From a virus, in IMG/VR virus record IMGVR_UViG_3300020457_000019, positions 1-48,221 of that record: a stretch of 48,221 nt of DNA; one strand, written 5' to 3'. The translations under genes and the position numbers were made by a program. Below the pieces are notes generated by a model. The model had not been told where the DNA came from. It did no database searches and saw only the letters and a program-made list of their open reading frames with translations. How positions within the stretch are numbered: the first letter of the stretch is position 1; each line of letters opens with the position of its first letter. Positions 3,356 through 40,114 of the stretch are shown here, one piece after another.

Positions 3356-5311
3356 ATGACAACTACATATACCGATAACGGGACTAATACTCCTAATGGA
3401 ACCCATTTGGATTTCACCTTTACTTTTCCCGTTTTACAAACTGAAGATGTGAAAGTTGCTCTTAATGGAGTAACACAAACTACAACTAAATATTCCGTAT
3501 CCACCTCGCCCACCGCAAAAATAACTTTTAATAACACCAGCGTTGATAGCTCTGTACAAGAAAGTACAGGTGCTCCTAAGACTGGTGTTCTAGTAAGAGT
3601 TTATAGAGAGACAGTAGTCCACAAAAACAATGGTGACTCTGACCCTAAAGCTGTATTTTCAGTTGGGTCAGCTATTCGTGCAGGAGATCTTAATAACAAC
3701 GTAGATCAAGCTTTGTTCGGTATAGCTGAGTTACAAGAGAGAAAAACCCAAACTGAGAATATTCAAGATGGGGCAGTAACAAGTAATAAGATTCTTGATG
3801 GAACTATTGTTGATGCTGATATTAGTGGAAGTGCTGCTATAGCACAAAGCAAGATTGCTACAGGAAACTTACCTAGTGGCATAACCGTTAATTCAGGAAA
3901 CATCGTAGATGGTTCTATTGTTATTGGAGATCTTCAACCGGGAACTCTTGACAGTAGATACTATTCAGAAACTGAACTAGATGCTGGGCAACTAGACAAT
4001 AGATACTACACAGAAACTGAGCTTAATGCTGGACAATTAGATAATAGATATTTTACAGAGACCGAGTTAAGTGGAGGTCAATTAGATAACAGATACTTCA
4101 CAGAGACAGAATTAAATGCTGGTCAATTAGATACTAGATATTTCACAGAGACTGAATCTGACGCTAGATTCTTACGTCAAGATTCAACTGACGTTATAGA
4201 TACTGCGGCTACTTGGACTATAGGAAATACTCACGTTGCAACAACTGGAGCTATCGAAGCTCGTATTGTTGACCTTATTGATGACGTTGGTGGCTTTGAT
4301 GCGATAGCTAATGAAACCAGTTTCCCGGCGACAAACCCACAAGGTACTGCTGGACAATCTGCAATCCTTAGTATTGCTGCTGTGTCTACAACTTTAACTC
4401 CAACCGCTAATGTAATTACTATTGCTAACGGAGCTGGAACTGGAAATACAGTCACAATTAATAACGTAACTGCAAGTTCAATTCCTAGTGGATTTGGATT
4501 ATTAGTTGAATCTACTGCGACTACTCATACATATAATTTCCATAGATTAATTCCTAAAGCTTTAGACGTTAATACCGTTGCAACCAACGTTACTAACATT
4601 GCAGCTGCTGGTGCGAACGTAGTTGATATCAATAACTTTGCTGATAAATATATTATTAGCAGTTCAGCTCCTACTCAAAGGAATGATGGCTCGTCATTGC
4701 AGAATGGCGATCTTTGGTACGACAGTTCCAACCTTGTGATGATGGTTTATGACGGAACCGCAGGAGATGGTTTCTCCCCTATCACACCTAGTCAATCAAC
4801 TATTACAGCTATTAATAGTGTTTCTGGTCACGTTACTTTTACAGAGGATTTAGGAAGCATTGCTGATGCTATAAATACTGGCTCAGGAAATAACTCTATC
4901 AATACTGTTGGAGCTGCAATTACAAATGTCAATACGACTGCGACAAACATTGCAAACGTAAATACAGTTGCAGGAGCAATAGCAAACGTTAATACGACTG
5001 CTGGAAGTATTGCAAACGTTAATACTGTTGGAGCTGCAATAGCTGATGTTAATAGATATGCAAATGAATATCTCATTCAAAGTGGAACTCCATCATCTCC
5101 CAGCGGAGGAGATCTTTGGTTCAACTCCACAGCTAATCAACTTAACTATTACAACGGAACTGCATGGGTAGCTATAGCTCCCGGTATTGCTGGATTAATA
5201 AACGACGCTAACCCTGCGTTAGCAAATCATCTGGACTGCAACGATAAGAACCTTACTGAGGTAGGGACAGTTTCTGGAGACAATTTACAAATAGATTTCG
5301 GTACTCTTTAA
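3356..5311 (+). CDS. Tail fibre protein (T7 gp17-like N-terminus)
   Basis: The 651-residue product begins with a domain of about 150 residues of the T7 gp17 N-terminal type (an early TYTDNGTNTPNGTHLDF stretch, then VYRET and a DLNNNVDQALFGIAEL-like helix). In T7 this domain anchors the fibre to the tail. Behind it lie five 15-residue repeats of the type LDNRYFTETELNAGQ (about residues 198-272). Further on are a repeated NVNT-T/V-IA motif (about 520-565) and two copies of a GDLWY/GDLWF module (about 440-490 and 565-610). The repetitive shaft suggests a trimeric fibre that contacts the cyanobacterial surface. It abuts the S74-terminated protein at 5312 with no gap, so the two probably form one fibre assembly. 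The distal part differs from T7, as expected for host-range genes. Confidence 0.9.
   Translation: MTTTYTDNGTNTPNGTHLDFTFTFPVLQTEDVKVALNGVTQTTTKYSVSTSPTAKITFNNTSVDSSVQESTGAPKTGVLVRVYRETVVHKNNGDSDPKAVFSVGSAIRAGDLNNNVDQALFGIAELQERKTQTENIQDGAVTSNKILDGTIVDADISGSAAIAQSKIATGNLPSGITVNSGNIVDGSIVIGDLQPGTLDSRYYSETELDAGQLDNRYYTETELNAGQLDNRYFTETELSGGQLDNRYFTETELNAGQLDTRYFTETESDARFLRQDSTDVIDTAATWTIGNTHVATTGAIEARIVDLIDDVGGFDAIANETSFPATNPQGTAGQSAILSIAAVSTTLTPTANVITIANGAGTGNTVTINNVTASSIPSGFGLLVESTATTHTYNFHRLIPKALDVNTVATNVTNIAAAGANVVDINNFADKYIISSSAPTQRNDGSSLQNGDLWYDSSNLVMMVYDGTAGDGFSPITPSQSTITAINSVSGHVTFTEDLGSIADAINTGSGNNSINTVGAAITNVNTTATNIANVNTVAGAIANVNTTAGSIANVNTVGAAIADVNRYANEYLIQSGTPSSPSGGDLWFNSTANQLNYYNGTAWVAIAPGIAGLINDANPALANHLDCNDKNLTEVGTVSGDNLQIDFGTL
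3947..4171 (+). repeat. Five tandem 45-bp (15-residue) repeats in the tail fibre
   Basis: Five consecutive in-frame units encode LD-[ST/N]-RY-[YF]-[ST]-ETE-[LS]-xAGQ-like repeats; the last unit diverges into DARF. The DNA copies differ mainly by synonymous changes, so the repeat is maintained at protein level. Units of this kind form shaft segments in phage fibres, and their number can change by recombination. Confidence 0.9.
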
Positions 5312-13264: not shown

Positions 13265-13280
13265 TTATACACATTCGTAT
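13265..13280 (+). promoter_or_regulatory. TTATACAC-type motif directly before the terminase start
   Basis: TTATACACATTCGTAT is one of four copies of the same 16-base motif in the window (others at 16603, 17754, 21277). This copy ends exactly one base before the ATG of the large terminase gene, and CATTC/GAATG around it can form a small hairpin. It may be a promoter, operator or processing site; if a promoter, the transcript would be nearly leaderless. Confidence 0.5.
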
Positions 13281-16120: not shown

Positions 16121-16373
16121 AAGTCCGCTGGTATGACTGGGATTTTGCAAGGATTATCACGCGCGATCAATTAACGCGGGCGGGCGCGGGAACAATTAAC
16201 GCAGGCATGCACACGCGCACGCGGTTTACTTGTCGCTCTCACTCTCTCGCGATCTGTTGCCCAACGAATTTTCCCAGTCAGCGACAGGGATGAACATCGA
16301 GTTGTATCATTTGTTCAGGGCTAACCGATACACCATGGTATACTGAGAACAGAGAGAGTTGTTTTATGTTTAC

Positions 16374-16414
16374 TTTATTTATCTCATCCCTTTAGGGTGA
16401 GAGAGATAAATAAA
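16374..16414. repeat. Long A/T-rich inverted repeat
   Basis: TTTATTTATCTC (16374-16385) and GAGATAAATAAA (16403-16414) are perfect inverted copies. The loop itself contains CCCT/AGGG and CTCA/TGAG complements, so a hairpin of about 17-18 paired positions is possible. It lies about 190 bases upstream of the first TTATACAC motif in the early control region. It could be an origin element, regulator site or RNA structure. Confidence 0.6.
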
Positions 16415-16465
16415 CTAAACAACAACTCCTCTCCACCGAAAAACAAACTCTGGGGACTGCTCGAC

Positions 16466-16615
16466 ATGACTGAGCAGCACAGCAAGCGACAGGTCCGGAA
16501 GATCCTAGCTAGCCCCACCGAAGGTCAGCCCCCGACTCGGGACCAGAGCGAATACACAGCCGAGAACATCCGGCACGTAGTGCATACAAAACAAGTGCTA
16601 ACTTATACACATTAG
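16466..16615 (+). CDS. Possible small early protein, 49 residues
   Basis: ATG at 16466 is preceded by GGGGA about 8 bases upstream. The product is polar and basic (MTEQHSKRQVRKILASPTEG at the start) and ends inside the TTATACAC motif at 16603. Its G+C-rich codons differ from neighbours. It may be only an open frame in the control region. Confidence 0.3.
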   Translation: MTEQHSKRQVRKILASPTEGQPPTRDQSEYTAENIRHVVHTKQVLTYTH

Positions 16616-16618
16616 TAT
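16603..16618 (+). promoter_or_regulatory. TTATACAC-type motif, early region copy 1
   Basis: TTATACACATTAGTAT, identical to the copy at 17754. It runs into a perfect inverted repeat TAGTATCT/AGATACTA (16613-16630), which in turn abuts the tRNA-like element at 16631. It sits upstream of the first clear early gene and may be the early promoter or a regulator site. Confidence 0.5.
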
Positions 16619-16630
16619 CTTTAGATACTA

Positions 16631-16701
16631 GATAGCCCAGTTAGTGGATGCGTAGTGGTGCCCCTTCAGCTACGCATGAACGGTGCAAATCCGTTGCTAT
16701 C
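16631..16701 (+). ncRNA. tRNA-like cloverleaf element upstream of the early genes
   Basis: Read as RNA, this 71-base stretch folds like a tRNA. The acceptor-like stem is GATAGC (16631-16636) with GCTATC (16696-16701). A D-arm-like hairpin CCA/TGG (16637-16647) follows. Then comes a 7-bp arm TGCGTAG/CTACGCA (16649-16655 with 16670-16676) with a 14-base loop. A T-arm of exactly tRNA geometry closes it: stem AACGG/CCGTT, 7-base loop TGCAAAT, stacked directly on the acceptor strand. The large middle loop and G in place of the second T-loop U argue against a working tRNA. It lies in the leader of the gene at 16749 and could be a processing site for RNase P/Z, a regulatory RNA or a tRNA mimic. Confidence 0.5.
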
Positions 16702-16748
16702 ACTTGGATATTTATATCCAAATTGTTAATTTAATTCGGAGAATTATT

Positions 16749-17063
16749 ATGTTTGGTTACACTATTGTGAATCGTAGATTCAGCAATGCTATTGAGTTTG
16801 CTGCTGTTAACGTCTTGCAGGGTCGCTGCATTATCAGATTCAAAGAATCTGGTGCTGAGTATCTTTACAAGAACGTTAGTCGTAGACGACTACTTAGCTT
16901 GTTAATAGATAACAACAAAAGCTTAGGGTTTTGGATTCAATACCTTAAAAAGAATGCTATTCAAGAGAATAGATATCGTCCAGCAACTGGTGCTATGACA
17001 TACAACCGCATCGGTTTTAGTTACTTCAATGAAGTACCTAAGTTATTAACAGCTGGTGCCTAG
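16749..17063 (+). CDS. Early protein with KTSC-like domain
   Basis: I chose the ATG at 16749 because TTCGGAGA, a good ribosome-binding site, precedes it by 6-8 bases; an in-frame ATG at 16683 lies inside the tRNA-like element. The 104-residue product contains IIRFKESGAEYLYKNVSRRR followed by LLSLLIDNNKSLGFWIQYLK, matching the pattern of KTSC domains (F-x-x-G-x-x-Y-x-Y-x-x-V then S-x-G-x-x-F/W). KTSC domains are small beta-barrel modules found in phage and bacterial proteins of unclear function, some linked to lysyl-tRNA synthetase. It is the first clear early gene and probably acts soon after DNA entry. Confidence 0.7.
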   Translation: MFGYTIVNRRFSNAIEFAAVNVLQGRCIIRFKESGAEYLYKNVSRRRLLSLLIDNNKSLGFWIQYLKKNAIQENRYRPATGAMTYNRIGFSYFNEVPKLLTAGA

Positions 17064-17753: not shown

Positions 17754-17769
17754 TTATACACATTAGTAT
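17754..17769 (+). promoter_or_regulatory. TTATACAC-type motif, early region copy 2
   Basis: TTATACACATTAGTAT, identical to the copy at 16603, beginning 1 base after a gene stop. Like that copy it is followed immediately by a hairpin. Confidence 0.5.
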
Positions 17770-17770
17770 A

Positions 17771-17809
17771 ATAATAGTGGTATTAATCATGCCACTATTA
17801 TATATTTTT
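17771..17809 (+). terminator. Rho-independent terminator in the early region
   Basis: Perfect 10-bp stem ATAATAGTGG (17771-17780) with CCACTATTAT (17792-17801), 11-base loop, then ATATTTTT. It ends the transcription unit of the two preceding early genes. It begins two bases after the TTATACAC motif. Confidence 0.75.
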
Positions 17810-17850
17810 CCACACTCATAGACGCACACTCATCTTATTTCCACACTCAC
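17808..17850. repeat. Three short direct repeats of a CCACACTCA type
   Basis: TTCCACACTCA at 17808-17818 and again at 17839-17849, with GCACACTCATC between (from 17824), followed by the palindrome CACACGTGTG. This looks like a cluster of protein-binding sites. A CTATACATAGGAGTATA stretch at 17864 follows, similar to part of the TTATACAC motif. Confidence 0.45.
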
Positions 17851-17898
17851 GCCACACGTGTGTCTATACATAGGAGTATATATTTTTTTATTTTGCTC

Positions 17899-17957
17899 AT
17901 GGTCGCCACGTCCACATGGACGCAGGGTCGCAGGGTCGCACATGGACGCATGGTCGC
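17899..17957. repeat. Short G+C-rich imperfect repeats
   Basis: CATGGTCGC (17899, 17949) and CATGGACGCA (17915, 17941) flank a tandem pair of GGGTCGCA (17925 and 17933). The block looks built by slippage or duplication in front of the tRNA-like T-arm at 17977. Confidence 0.7.
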
Positions 17958-18000
17958 GCTGACTCCGAACAGCATGGACGGTTCGATTCCGTCTACGTCC
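17944..18000 (+). ncRNA. Truncated tRNA-like element with intact T-arm
   Basis: A textbook T-arm, GACGG-TTCGATT-CCGTC (17977-17993), is followed directly by TACGTCC, which pairs with GGACGCA at 17944-17950 except for one mismatch. Between them is a hairpin GCTG-ACTCCGAA-CAGC whose loop resembles the anticodon loop CTCCGAA of a tRNA-Arg(CCG) with one T lost. There is no room for a D-arm (57 bases in all). An alternative 5' strand GGACGCA at 17918 would make it 83 bases. It may be a decayed host tRNA gene or a shortened tRNA mimic in the leader of the next gene. Confidence 0.5.
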
Positions 18001-18036
18001 TATTACTTCTCAATGAGAGAAGTTATTCGGAACATC

Positions 18037-18339
18037 ATGAAAGCATACAAAGTTCTCTACAAAGAGACCATGATTCACAAGTTTGTTGTACCAGCTAAGT
18101 CAAAAGCTGAAGCTGTACGACACATCAAAGACAGAATCTATTGGGATTTAGAGCCATTATCAGAATGTTCTGATGATGACTACTCAGTCAAGGACATACA
18201 AATCCTTGATGAAATGCCAACAGCTAGTCAATGGTGGAACAAGGTCCTTGAAAGTAGACAGAGCTGGCTCGAACAGCAAGCCAGAGACAAAGCAGCTAAA
18301 CAAGCAGCTGAGAACAACAATCTTAGAACTGATTTCTAA
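18037..18339 (+). CDS. Small early protein (YKV family A)
   Basis: I place the start at 18037, MKAYKVLYKE; an open frame continues upstream through the tRNA-like element but has no coding character. The 100-residue product has an N-terminal beta/alpha module (YKVLYKETMIHKFVVPAKSK, then AEAVRHIKDRIYW), an acidic middle and a helical charged C-terminus. The N-terminal module resembles that of the protein at 18866 (YKVIYR, WHLIKAKTDEDAAYEAL), so the two may be paralogues. Function unknown; probably host take-over. Confidence 0.6.
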   Translation: MKAYKVLYKETMIHKFVVPAKSKAEAVRHIKDRIYWDLEPLSECSDDDYSVKDIQILDEMPTASQWWNKVLESRQSWLEQQARDKAAKQAAENNNLRTDF

Positions 18340-21158: not shown

Positions 21159-21197
21159 GGGAGTGTGGCGGAATTGGTAGACGCGCCGGACTTAAAA
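21159..21197 (+). other. attP: Putative attP: 5' part of a tRNA-Leu(UAA) gene
   Basis: This stretch (GTGTGGCGGAATTGGTAGAC at its core, then GCGCCGGACTTAAAA) is the acceptor strand, D-arm and anticodon-arm 5' side, including the UAA anticodon, of a bacterial tRNA-Leu. The homology stops right after the anticodon. No T-arm follows, so it is not a working tRNA. A tRNA fragment directly downstream of a tyrosine integrase gene is the usual sign of an attachment site. Confidence 0.88.
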
Positions 21198-21228
21198 ACC
21201 GCATAAGTTAATTTTCAGAATGGTATCC

Positions 21229-21276: not shown

Positions 21277-21292
21277 TTATACACCTTAGTAT
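21277..21292 (+). promoter_or_regulatory. TTATACAC-type motif upstream of the RNA polymerase gene
   Basis: TTATACACCTTAGTAT, 19 bases after the terminator's T-run and 29 bases before the ATG. Since the terminator isolates the polymerase gene from upstream transcripts, this is the strongest argument that the motif is, or contains, a promoter. Confidence 0.6.
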
Positions 21293-38635: not shown

Positions 38636-38709
38636 TGCCACGTCCGTTCATCCCTAACGGGACGCATGACTCCAAAGCATGGAACGGGGCTTTGGTACTG
38701 GAGTGAATT

Positions 38710-38808
38710 ATGACTCAAGTAGAATTGCAAGCTCGACTCAAAGAGCAGAAAGATTTCAAAAGAGAAACTTTACTTAAGTATCGTGGCATCACATACACAA
38801 AAAGATAA
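38710..38808 (+). CDS. Small DUF4278-like protein, 32 residues
   Basis: The product (MTQVELQARLKEQKDFKRET, then LLKYRGITYTKR) ends in L-K-Y-R-G-I-x-Y, the core of short cyanobacterial and cyanophage proteins of the DUF4278 type. A cyanobacterial origin is likely; function unknown. Its stop codon lies within the 5' strand of the RNA element at 38804. Confidence 0.45.
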   Translation: MTQVELQARLKEQKDFKRETLLKYRGITYTKR

Positions 38809-38846
38809 TCGGTAAGCCGACTGGGAGGTGCAAGTCCTCCCTTATC
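38804..38846 (+). ncRNA. Small tRNA-like three-way junction upstream of the capsid gene
   Basis: GATAA (38804) pairs with TTATC (38842-38846). Inside lie TCGG-TAAG-CCGA (38809-38820) and a 6-bp hairpin GGGAGG-TGCAAGT-CCTCCC (38823-38841) stacked on the closing stem. The 7-base loop TGCAAGT is a T-loop and differs by one base from the TGCAAAT loop of the element at 16631; the outer stem also begins GATA in both. No anticodon arm is present. It lies about 145 bases upstream of the capsid ATG and could be a processing or stability element of the capsid mRNA. Confidence 0.5.
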
Positions 38847-38989
38847 AATCTGGCTTTTGACCCGTACGCGGATACTCATCAGCCGTCTAGACGGTGGGAT
38901 AGACCACAAATATCAATGAGTCCAACTAAGACTCACAACTTTTTACGTACGTGAACGATCAAATATACACTTAACTTTAAGCTAAATAA

Positions 38990-40114
38990 ATGGCACATCA
39001 GGATAGTACCCTAACGACCAATCTAACTCGTCAGGGACAAAATAATTCAGCTGGTGACGCACGCGCCCTTTACTTAAAGCTGTTTAGTGGAGAGATGTTT
39101 AAAGGATTCCAGCACGAGACAATCGCTCGTGACATGGTAATGAAGAGAACATTGAAAAACGGTAAGAGTTTACAGTTCATTTATACTGGTTCAACTACTG
39201 CCGAGTATCATACTCCCGGAAATAGCATATTAGGTAACAGCGACGGAGCACCTCCAGTTGCAGAGAAAACAATTACAGTTGACGATCTATTAATCAGTTC
39301 AGCTTTCGTATATGAGCTAGATGAAACACTAGCACACTTCGAGTTGAGAGGAGAGATCTCACGTAAGATTGGATATGCACTTGCAGAGAAGTATGACAAG
39401 CTCATCTTCAGAGCAATCACAAGAGGAGCAAGACAAGCTTCTCCAATCACGAAGACTAACTTCAAAGAACCCGGTGGAACACAGATCAGAGTTGGTTCAA
39501 CAACTAATGATTCTGACGCATTCAACGCAGGCAACTTAGTAACAGCATTCTATGATGCTGCTGCCGCCTTAGATGAAAAGGGCGTAAGTTCACAGGGAAG
39601 ATGTGCGGTTCTTAACCCTCGTCAGTACTACGCACTTATAACTGATATAGCATCTAACGGTCTTGTTAACAGAGACGTTCAAGGTTCTGCATTACAGAGT
39701 GGTAATGGCGTTGTAGAAATCGCTGGCATACACATTTACAAGTCTATGAACATTCCGTTCTTAGGTAAGTATGGTACTGCTTTCGGTGGAACAACAGGTA
39801 AGACCTCACCATCTAACATGGGAGACAGAATTGGTAAAACACTTGAGAACGCATCAGGTGCAACAGCTGGAATCAACAACGACTATGGTACTGCTACTGA
39901 AGTGGGCTCTAAGTCTTGTGGATTAATCTTCCAGAAGGAAGCCGCTGGTGTAGTAGAAGCAATCGGTCCTCAGGTACAAGTAACAAGCGGAGATATATCC
40001 GTTGTTTACCAAGGCGATGTTATCCTTGGCAGACTAGCTATGGGGGCAGACTACCTAAACCCAGCAGCTGCTGTAGAATTATATGTTGGCGCAACTGCAC
40101 CATCTGCATTCTAA
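38990..40114 (+). CDS. Major capsid protein (gp10-like)
   Basis: The 374-residue product matches T7-like marine capsid proteins: N-terminal QDSTLTTNLTRQGQNNSAGD and ALYLKLFSGEMFKGFQHETI, a central GRCAVLNPRQYYALITDI, and C-terminal AAGVVEAIGPQVQVT. It adopts the HK97 fold as the capsid shell. A strong terminator follows at 40130, and a separate leader of about 180 bases precedes it, suggesting high expression. Confidence 0.95.
   Translation: MAHQDSTLTTNLTRQGQNNSAGDARALYLKLFSGEMFKGFQHETIARDMVMKRTLKNGKSLQFIYTGSTTAEYHTPGNSILGNSDGAPPVAEKTITVDDLLISSAFVYELDETLAHFELRGEISRKIGYALAEKYDKLIFRAITRGARQASPITKTNFKEPGGTQIRVGSTTNDSDAFNAGNLVTAFYDAAAALDEKGVSSQGRCAVLNPRQYYALITDIASNGLVNRDVQGSALQSGNGVVEIAGIHIYKSMNIPFLGKYGTAFGGTTGKTSPSNMGDRIGKTLENASGATAGINNDYGTATEVGSKSCGLIFQKEAAGVVEAIGPQVQVTSGDISVVYQGDVILGRLAMGADYLNPAAAVELYVGATAPSAF

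Follow-up and report, generated by a model that had tools for sequence, protein, structure and literature searches.

In bacteriophage T7, ribonuclease (RNase) III sites serve as processing signals between genes, both in the early region and among the late genes. The functionally nearest known systems to the locus considered here are the t-elements of plant mitochondria, non-decoding structures at messenger RNA (mRNA) ends that resemble transfer RNA (tRNA) and have no encoded CCA (PMC11658184). The 48,221-base virus record IMGVR_UViG_3300020457_000019, analysed at its full length and hereafter called the window, represents a T7-like, Tritonvirus-like cyanophage whose nearest named relatives are P-SSP2 and P-SSP3 of the genus Tritonvirus, with about 78% DNA identity across part of the early region. 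At positions 16631-16701 the window carries an element (element 1) that is, judged by comparison with its relatives, a real and conserved RNA imitating the upper half of a tRNA in front of an early gene.

Comparable modules were detected in other leaders and other T7-like cyanophages, and they differ from the described systems in several respects. Whereas T7 RNase III sites are double-stranded hairpins for RNase III, the cyanophage modules appear to be tRNA mimics. The t-elements are cut by RNase P and RNase Z at mRNA ends (PMC11658184), whereas such cleavage is only proposed for the cyanophage modules, which moreover occur in phages, do without a D stem or an anticodon arm and display a new TGC/AG pair of T-loop and linker. 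The M3 RNA of phi80 and the C4 antisense RNA of P1 and P7 are phage RNAs recognised by host RNase P (PMC11143913); these are single small RNAs of E. coli phages, whereas a repeated leader module with predicted cleavage is present in the T7-like cyanophages. The tRNA-like structure (TLS) of turnip yellow mosaic virus likewise rebuilds the elbow of D-loop and T-loop with a different topology (PMC4810234), and viral TLSs form the 3' terminus of RNA virus genomes, whereas the cyanophage modules represent internal leaders in mRNAs of DNA phages. A literature search with thin coverage of subscription journals yielded nothing on tRNA-like leaders of cyanophages apart from one general review naming both, no phage example of such a repeated and evolving leader module, and no report of the TGC/AG elbow variant.

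Fold and conservation of element 1

Element 1 is located in the 5' leader of the first early gene (gene A), as the preliminary description had stated, and its parts, like the other elements, hairpins and repeated motif specified by coordinates below, are given for the plus strand. The stretch 16631-16701 folds exactly as proposed there, with a minimum free energy of -25.5 kcal/mol (z = -2.7; 3 of 200 shuffled sequences were as good). The acceptor-like helix comprises 6 base pairs (bp) instead of the 7 that are standard in tRNA and is formed by the strands GATAGC (16631-16636, with an invariant G1) and GCTATC (16696-16701), the latter running on from the T-stem. The T-arm AACGG-TGCAAAT-CCGTT (16679-16695) retains the geometry of a tRNA, with a 5-bp stem and a 7-nucleotide (nt) loop, and is stacked directly and coaxially on the acceptor-like helix, resulting in a stack of 11 bp; one of its pairs changed from C-G to G-C in 5 of 13 sequences. 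The middle arm at the anticodon position (16648-16677) consists of a 9-bp stem and the 12-nt loop GGTGCCCCTTCA, with 6 of 10 pairs compensated. Within the D-like linker (16637-16647) only the unpaired TAG is conserved (AG at 16643-16644): conservation does not extend to the 3-bp D stem 16637-16639/16645-16647, and all relatives keep an unpaired [TC]AG alone. Because the D stem is not kept and only the acceptor-like, middle and T-arms are conserved, element 1 is, on comparative grounds, a three-way junction and not the four-armed cloverleaf of the preliminary description. The view that it is no normal tRNA proved sound: ARAGORN reported 0 tRNA genes in the window, element 1 gave no Rfam tRNA match, and a functional tRNA gene is also excluded by the missing D stem and by a middle loop that has 12-14 nt or is replaced.

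Relatives of element 1 were collected from 13 IMG/VR loci by a protein search with gene A, and locus L039 was added by a DNA pattern scan. Several other matches of the pattern scan (L022, L025, L026, L028, L029, L031, L034-L037, L041 and L042) are located outside any such leader and look like chance. Covariation was assessed in a covariance-model alignment of 13 distinct sequences (the window and 12 relatives), in which 98.4% of the cells were paired, compared with 33-41% in slid controls; the alignment was fitted to the model and thus favours the structure, and the compensations are nonetheless readable directly in the sequences. Changes on both sides affected 19 of the 35 pairs and 56 cells in total, whereas the 500 shuffled alignments, with means of 9.5 pairs and 15 cells, all stayed below the observed values. 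Neither of the outcomes that the preliminary description had held against the fold, i.e. missing covariation and stems broken in relatives, was observed. The acceptor-like helix, for instance, occurs as GATAGC/GCTATC, GCTGGT/ACCAGC and GACTGT/GCAGTC. The comparative evidence for element 1 is much stronger than that from folding energy.

The conserved unit extends beyond the stretch first described and spans 16613-16721, since compensated 7-bp hairpins adjoin element 1 on both sides. The 5' hairpin TAGTATC-TTTA-GATACTA (16613-16630; z -3.5), located at the presumed transcript start, revealed 100% paired cells and compensation in 5 of 7 pairs (TAGTATC/GATACTA versus TGGTATC/GATACCA). The 3' flank (16702-16721) comprises a discriminator-like A that is invariant among the relatives of element 1, a C and the hairpin TTGGATA-TTTA-TATCCAA (z -3.35), in which 4 of 7 pairs are compensated (TTGGATA/TATCCAA versus TTGAGTC/GACTCAA). 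The T-arm GGTGCAA[AC]TCC is placed about 45-70 bases 5' of the start codon in nearly all collected loci. The middle arm can be as short as 4 bp or exceed 10 bp; its loop, among the relatives mostly of 12 or 14 nt (GGTGYCCCTWCA or GGTGTAYAYCAACA), keeps GGTG...CA in most of them, a motif that is lost in L012 and in L013, where the loop is swapped for a larger insertion. The covariance model matched all relatives 5' of one and the same gene, with E-values from 2e-27 to 6e-6. This model (R1) detected element 1 in Tritonvirus-type records only and nothing convincing in 14 other cyanophage genomes, in which comparable modules were found solely by means of a structural descriptor.

Related modules and the elbow rule in T7-like cyanophages

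The window holds three tRNA-like modules, located at 16631-16701, 17944-18000 and 38804-38846. The second element (17944-18000) consists of GGACG, a linker with GG, the arm GCTG-ACTCCGAA-CAGC, a canonical T-arm with the loop TTCGATT and CGTCC. Taken by itself, its folding energy lacks significance (z -0.8); its acceptor, middle stem and T-stem, as well as the following hairpin, covary among Tritonvirus relatives. This hairpin, ACTTCTC-AATGA-GAGAAGT (18005-18023), precedes the ATG at 18037 by 13 nt and is represented in relatives by CCTCGC-AATGA-GCGAGG, CTTCTC-ACTGA-GAGAAG and GCCCACGC-AATGA-GCGGGGC. A C-G-closed pentaloop A[AC]TGA on very different stems is common to the hairpins that follow many elements, including those of P-SSP7, P-SSP10 and NATL2A-133, and is possibly a protein site. 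The third element (38804-38846; z -2.7) is composed of GATAA, the D-like hairpin TCGG-TAAG-CCGA, the T-arm GGGAGG-TGCAAGT-CCTCCC and TTATC, with acceptor pairs that are open in the isolated minimum free energy fold; its orthologues in P-SSP2, P-SSP3, P-SSP7 and P-GSP1 show GAGTA...TACTC.

When 26 whole records were scanned for the T-arm, 18 of them gave 25 matches in total, many of which are located a short distance 5' of early genes. The descriptor specified a T-loop T[TG]C[AG]ANN, a T-stem of at least 5 bp and an acceptor-like stem that is contiguous or one base off, with at least 11 bp in total. It identified modules in the window, P-SSP2, P-SSP3, P-SSP7, P-GSP1, NATL1A-7, S-TIP37, P-SSP10, 9515-10a, NATL2A-133, S-RIP1, S-RIP2 and Syn5 and in all but one of ten Tritonvirus-type contigs scanned, the exception being the divergent copy of G006/L012; one module in the capsid leader of P60 was recognised by eye. 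One to three modules are present in most of the T7-like cyanophages examined, and about two dozen distinct sites were seen in these phages, mostly 30-145 nt 5' of start codons and on the sense strand. Across 14 genomes from different genera, the gene strand carries 34 hairpins with a T[TG]C[AG]A loop, of which 21 are closed by a contiguous acceptor-like stem, compared with 439 of 2661 hairpins with other 7-nt loops (Fisher p 5e-9) and 3 of 11 T-loop hairpins on the opposite strand. The descriptor detected no module in T7, and its matches in the pelagiphages HTVC011P and HTVC019P are apparently ordinary tRNAs. Matches in long open reading frames (ORFs) or without the expected context were regarded as background (S-TIP37 32582, P-SSP10 32195, S-CBP4 41703, S28-C3 19531, P60 30868, SS120-1 20664, S-RIP2 41609 and HTVC019P 1312), as was GGTTCAACTCC at position 5118 of the window, which is inside a gene.

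The constant parts of the modules are the acceptor/T-arm stack of about 11-13 bp (5-7 plus 5-7), almost always uninterrupted along the 3' strand, the T-loop and the linker GG or AG; the first base is usually a purine, the base just after the acceptor is most commonly A, and no module encodes CCA. A D-like hairpin is present in P-SSP7 603, P-SSP10 and the capsid elements, a middle arm in elements 1 and 2 and S-RIP1, and neither in S-TIP37 20516, P-GSP1 12610 and NATL2A-133. The linker dinucleotide tracks the T-loop, with TTCRA accompanied by GG and TGCRA by AG, without exceptions by eye in about 25 sites. An automatic test, in which isolated linkers were folded and their predicted unpaired bases read off, assigned unpaired GG to 11 of 15 TTC and 1 of 11 TGC elements (p 0.002), several of the misses occurring because the isolated-linker fold pairs those bases. 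In tRNA, G18 and G19 contact psi55 and C56, the counterpart of GG combined with TTCRA. With respect to geometry, residue 19 pairs with 56 and residue 18 intercalates in the T-loop (PMC4810234).

Loop and linker switch together at orthologous sites: the gene A leader contains TGC/AG in Tritonvirus and TTC/GG in P-SSP7, and the capsid leader TGC/AG in the window, P-SSP2, P-SSP7 and P-GSP1 and TTC/GG in S-TIP37, S-RIP1, Syn5 and P60. This joint switching supports a co-varying tertiary contact equivalent to that of tRNA and suggests that the elbow is formed, GG or AG appearing to dock on the T-loop. Moreover, the orthologous site of the capsid leader is occupied in NATL1A-7 by a complete tRNA-Gly(TCC) (Rfam 70.5 bits; also ARAGORN), which precedes the conserved TTTGGC...GTCTAGACGGTGGGATAGACCACAA, and the same leader and capsid gene follow 3' of the tRNA. 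Such an exchange was seen for the capsid module and not for element 1. A tRNA and a non-decoding piece that replace each other have little in common except the features seen by tRNA-maturation enzymes.

Genomic context of the modules

Element 1 is placed between the transaldolase gene (15395) with a following long palindromic hairpin and gene A (16749-17063, plus strand), which encodes a protein of 104 amino acids of unknown function (phrog_7365) and is preceded by GGAG at 16738-16741. Relatives of gene A are present in P-SSP7 (709-966), 9515-10a, S-RIP2 and S-TIP37, each with a tRNA-like element on the 5' side (recognised by eye in S-TIP37). The P-SSP7 relative (L069) is an unannotated ORF of 85 amino acids (37% identity, E 4e-12) located between two tRNA-like elements. 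The window further contains genes for the terminase large subunit (13281), gene B (17066, DUF7227) followed by small ORFs, a transcriptional regulator (19831; P-SSP7 gp0.7/MarR-like by position), an integrase (20192), RNA polymerase (21322) and, 3' of the third element, the major capsid protein (38990-40114, plus strand; phrog_27239, E 3e-85). The near-palindrome 16352-16430 (arms 16367-16385/16403-16421 plus flanks), also present in P-SSP2, P-SSP3 and P-GSP1, is likely a late terminator or genome-end signal. The 5' half of a tRNA-Leu gene at about 21160-21200, between the integrase and RNA polymerase genes, matches P-SSP7 and is, as we presume from what is known of that phage, the probable phage attachment site (attP).

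Shortly 5' of element 1 lies the repeated motif TTATACACATTAGTAT (16603-16618), a candidate promoter, with exact copies at 16603 and 17754 and one-mismatch copies at 13265 and 21277. Allowing up to 3 mismatches, 6 sites were detected versus 1.1 expected, and none of 100 shuffled sequences reached 6. The common form TTATACAC[AC]TT[AC]GTAT occupies 13265-13280, 16603-16618, 17754-17769 and 21277-21292, i.e. it precedes the terminase gene, the leader of gene A, the second leader and the RNA polymerase gene, and it is kept in Tritonvirus relatives. The motif looks like a promoter for the phage's own RNA polymerase, and we take its part CAC.TTAG to be similar to the T7 sequence CACTATAG; the literature search found no paper on mapped promoters of P-SSP7. 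The second element is located 3' of the copy at 17754. Directly 3' of that copy, a strong hairpin (17764-17812; z -6.2) followed by a T run, with compensated variation in relatives, could be a short transcript or a terminator, and arrays of short repeats of the CACACTCA and ATGGACGCA types, also present in relatives, are located at 17815-17960, between this copy and the second element. On the 5' side of the third element, a Glutamine-II riboswitch was identified at 38642-38696 (Rfam RF01704, 51.1 bits), a layout similar to that of several cyanophages. On its 3' side, 38847-38990 represents a conserved structured capsid leader (TGGCTTTTGACCCGTACGCGGATAC...GCCGTCTAGACGGTGGGATAGACCACAA) common to many cyanopodoviruses.

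Predicted processing and alternative explanations

The suggestion that element 1 is a tRNA mimic is supported by the elbow rule, by the further modules in the window and related genera and by the tRNA-Gly at the capsid site; everything beyond a conserved and tRNA-like structure, including processing by RNase P and RNase Z, we infer. We consider it probable that the modules act as cleavage signals for these host enzymes, a kind of tRNA punctuation that would provide mRNAs with a defined, hairpin-bearing 5' end. What RNase P recognises is the acceptor/T stack with the T-loop, the D-loop being apparently dispensable, and RNase Z grips the elbow like a clamp and does not accept CCA (PMC4919913). 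Bare hairpins of acceptor and T-arm are cleaved by RNase P (PMC11143913), the cyanobacterial RNase P prefers CCA-less substrates (PMC4264200), and both enzymes are encoded by cyanobacteria (PMC10989914). The modules fit both enzymes. They would offer what tRNA-processing enzymes grip, namely a stack of about 11-13 bp, the T-loop and a docked D-loop-like dinucleotide, the anticodon arm being unneeded; their predicted T-loop-capped stacks of 11-13 bp (11 in element 1) correspond to the about 12 bp of an RNase P substrate, for which CCA is dispensable in cyanobacteria. The 5' cut (16630/16631) would be made by host RNase P and the cut immediately past the 3' side of the module, after about 16702, by host RNase Z, thereby separating messages and giving the downstream mRNA a fixed 5' end. 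In the processed mRNA, the compensated 3' hairpin would be preceded by one or a few bases and may shield the message against 5'-end-dependent decay, and the modules would do for cyanophages what RNase III sites do in T7. Like t-elements, the modules adjoin coding sequences in the same transcript orientation, as is evident from gene-strand bias and start-codon distances, and exchange with a real tRNA occurs at the capsid site. The homology to a particular tRNA gene that t-elements have was not found for element 1, which gave no tRNA-model match and has acceptors that differ among relatives with compensation. We see an even chance that T7-like cyanophages in general punctuate mRNAs with interchangeable, fast-evolving 'top-half tRNAs', including a redesigned elbow (TGCRA/AG), which serve as cleavage sites for the host's RNase P and RNase Z and define the 5' ends of early and capsid mRNAs in place of T7 RNase III sites.

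Several points weigh against cleavage. The prediction is derived from sequence and structure, and acceptance by RNase P and RNase Z of a T-loop with G for U55 is assumed. Element 1 begins only 18 nt past the presumed promoter, so that hardly anything would be removed by RNase P. With many of the sites being orthologous, the p-values overstate independence; the stack length is partly imposed by the search, which demanded at least 11 stacked pairs. Additionally, twelve other records carry at the capsid site an unrelated compensated hairpin with the invariant core GCACCTCAGAGTCGGAC (9515-10a, NATL2A-133, P-SSP10, S-B28, S28-C3, S-RIP2, S-CBP1, S-CBP4, S-SRP01, DSL-LC07, SS120-1 and G008). The function shared there could be wider than cleavage by tRNA enzymes; the hairpin is possibly an alternative processing signal or a small ribozyme, and five stretches searched gave no Rfam match to it. 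This hairpin also speaks for modules that act as structural 5' caps or roadblocks, in which a knotted elbow, uncut by RNase P and RNase Z, blocks RNase J or RNase E or insulates the leader. Stable structure near the transcript start with compensated flanking hairpins and the presence of the 5'-3' exonuclease RNase J in cyanobacteria (PMC10989914) agree with such a role, which we nevertheless consider unlikely, as it leaves unexplained why the top half of a tRNA is kept, why tRNA-Gly can substitute and why CCA is not encoded.

Recruitment of another tRNA-binding host factor, such as the CCA-adding enzyme, EF-Tu, T-loop modification enzymes or an aminoacyl-tRNA synthetase, to regulate downstream translation is more doubtful still: several such factors read the elbow or the acceptor stem (PMC4810234), but the anticodon-like arm is variable or missing, so that most synthetases would not select the modules, and their internal 3' ends would become free only after a cut. 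Only marginally better are the prospects of a riboswitch-like leader sensing a metabolite or protein. The three-way junction with a docked T-loop and a conserved middle loop next to GGAG and a start codon would suit such a leader, the T-loop serving as a docking motif, and a Glutamine-II riboswitch exists elsewhere in the phage. The cobalamin riboswitch has a 7-nt T-loop on a short stem; however, this T-loop is all that element 1 shares with it. The rest of the aptamer core is absent, and the cobalamin-type alternative raised in the preliminary description (RF00174, RF01689) found no support, as no Rfam family matched 16500-16800 at E-values up to 5. Furthermore, the modules have no ligand core in common, tRNA-like features alone being conserved, genes as unrelated as gene A, small ORFs and the capsid gene have this type of module in front of them, and no alternative fold sequestering the Shine-Dalgarno sequence was seen. 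Least probable by far are decayed tRNA genes or attachment-site remnants without RNA function, to which the integrase, the tRNA-Leu half shared with P-SSP7 and the real tRNAs of relatives and pelagiphages might point. This explanation is contradicted by covariation: compensatory changes, the rule linking T-loop and linker and the repeated placement before start codons indicate selection on RNA structure. An attachment-site remnant was excluded for the tRNA-like elements on the same grounds, the attP-like sequence being located elsewhere in the window.

Processing of the modules by host tRNA enzymes is directly testable in laboratory phages, namely P-SSP7 on Prochlorococcus MED4 and Syn5 on Synechococcus WH8109. 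Since ARAGORN and Rfam miss the elements, many marine phage genomes probably contain leaders of this kind that have escaped annotation. The modules would represent dozens of naturally evolved minimal tRNA mimics, showing which parts of a tRNA the enzymes need. If the proposal is true, widespread ocean viruses hand the processing of their mRNAs to the tRNA-maturation enzymes of the host, as organelles do.
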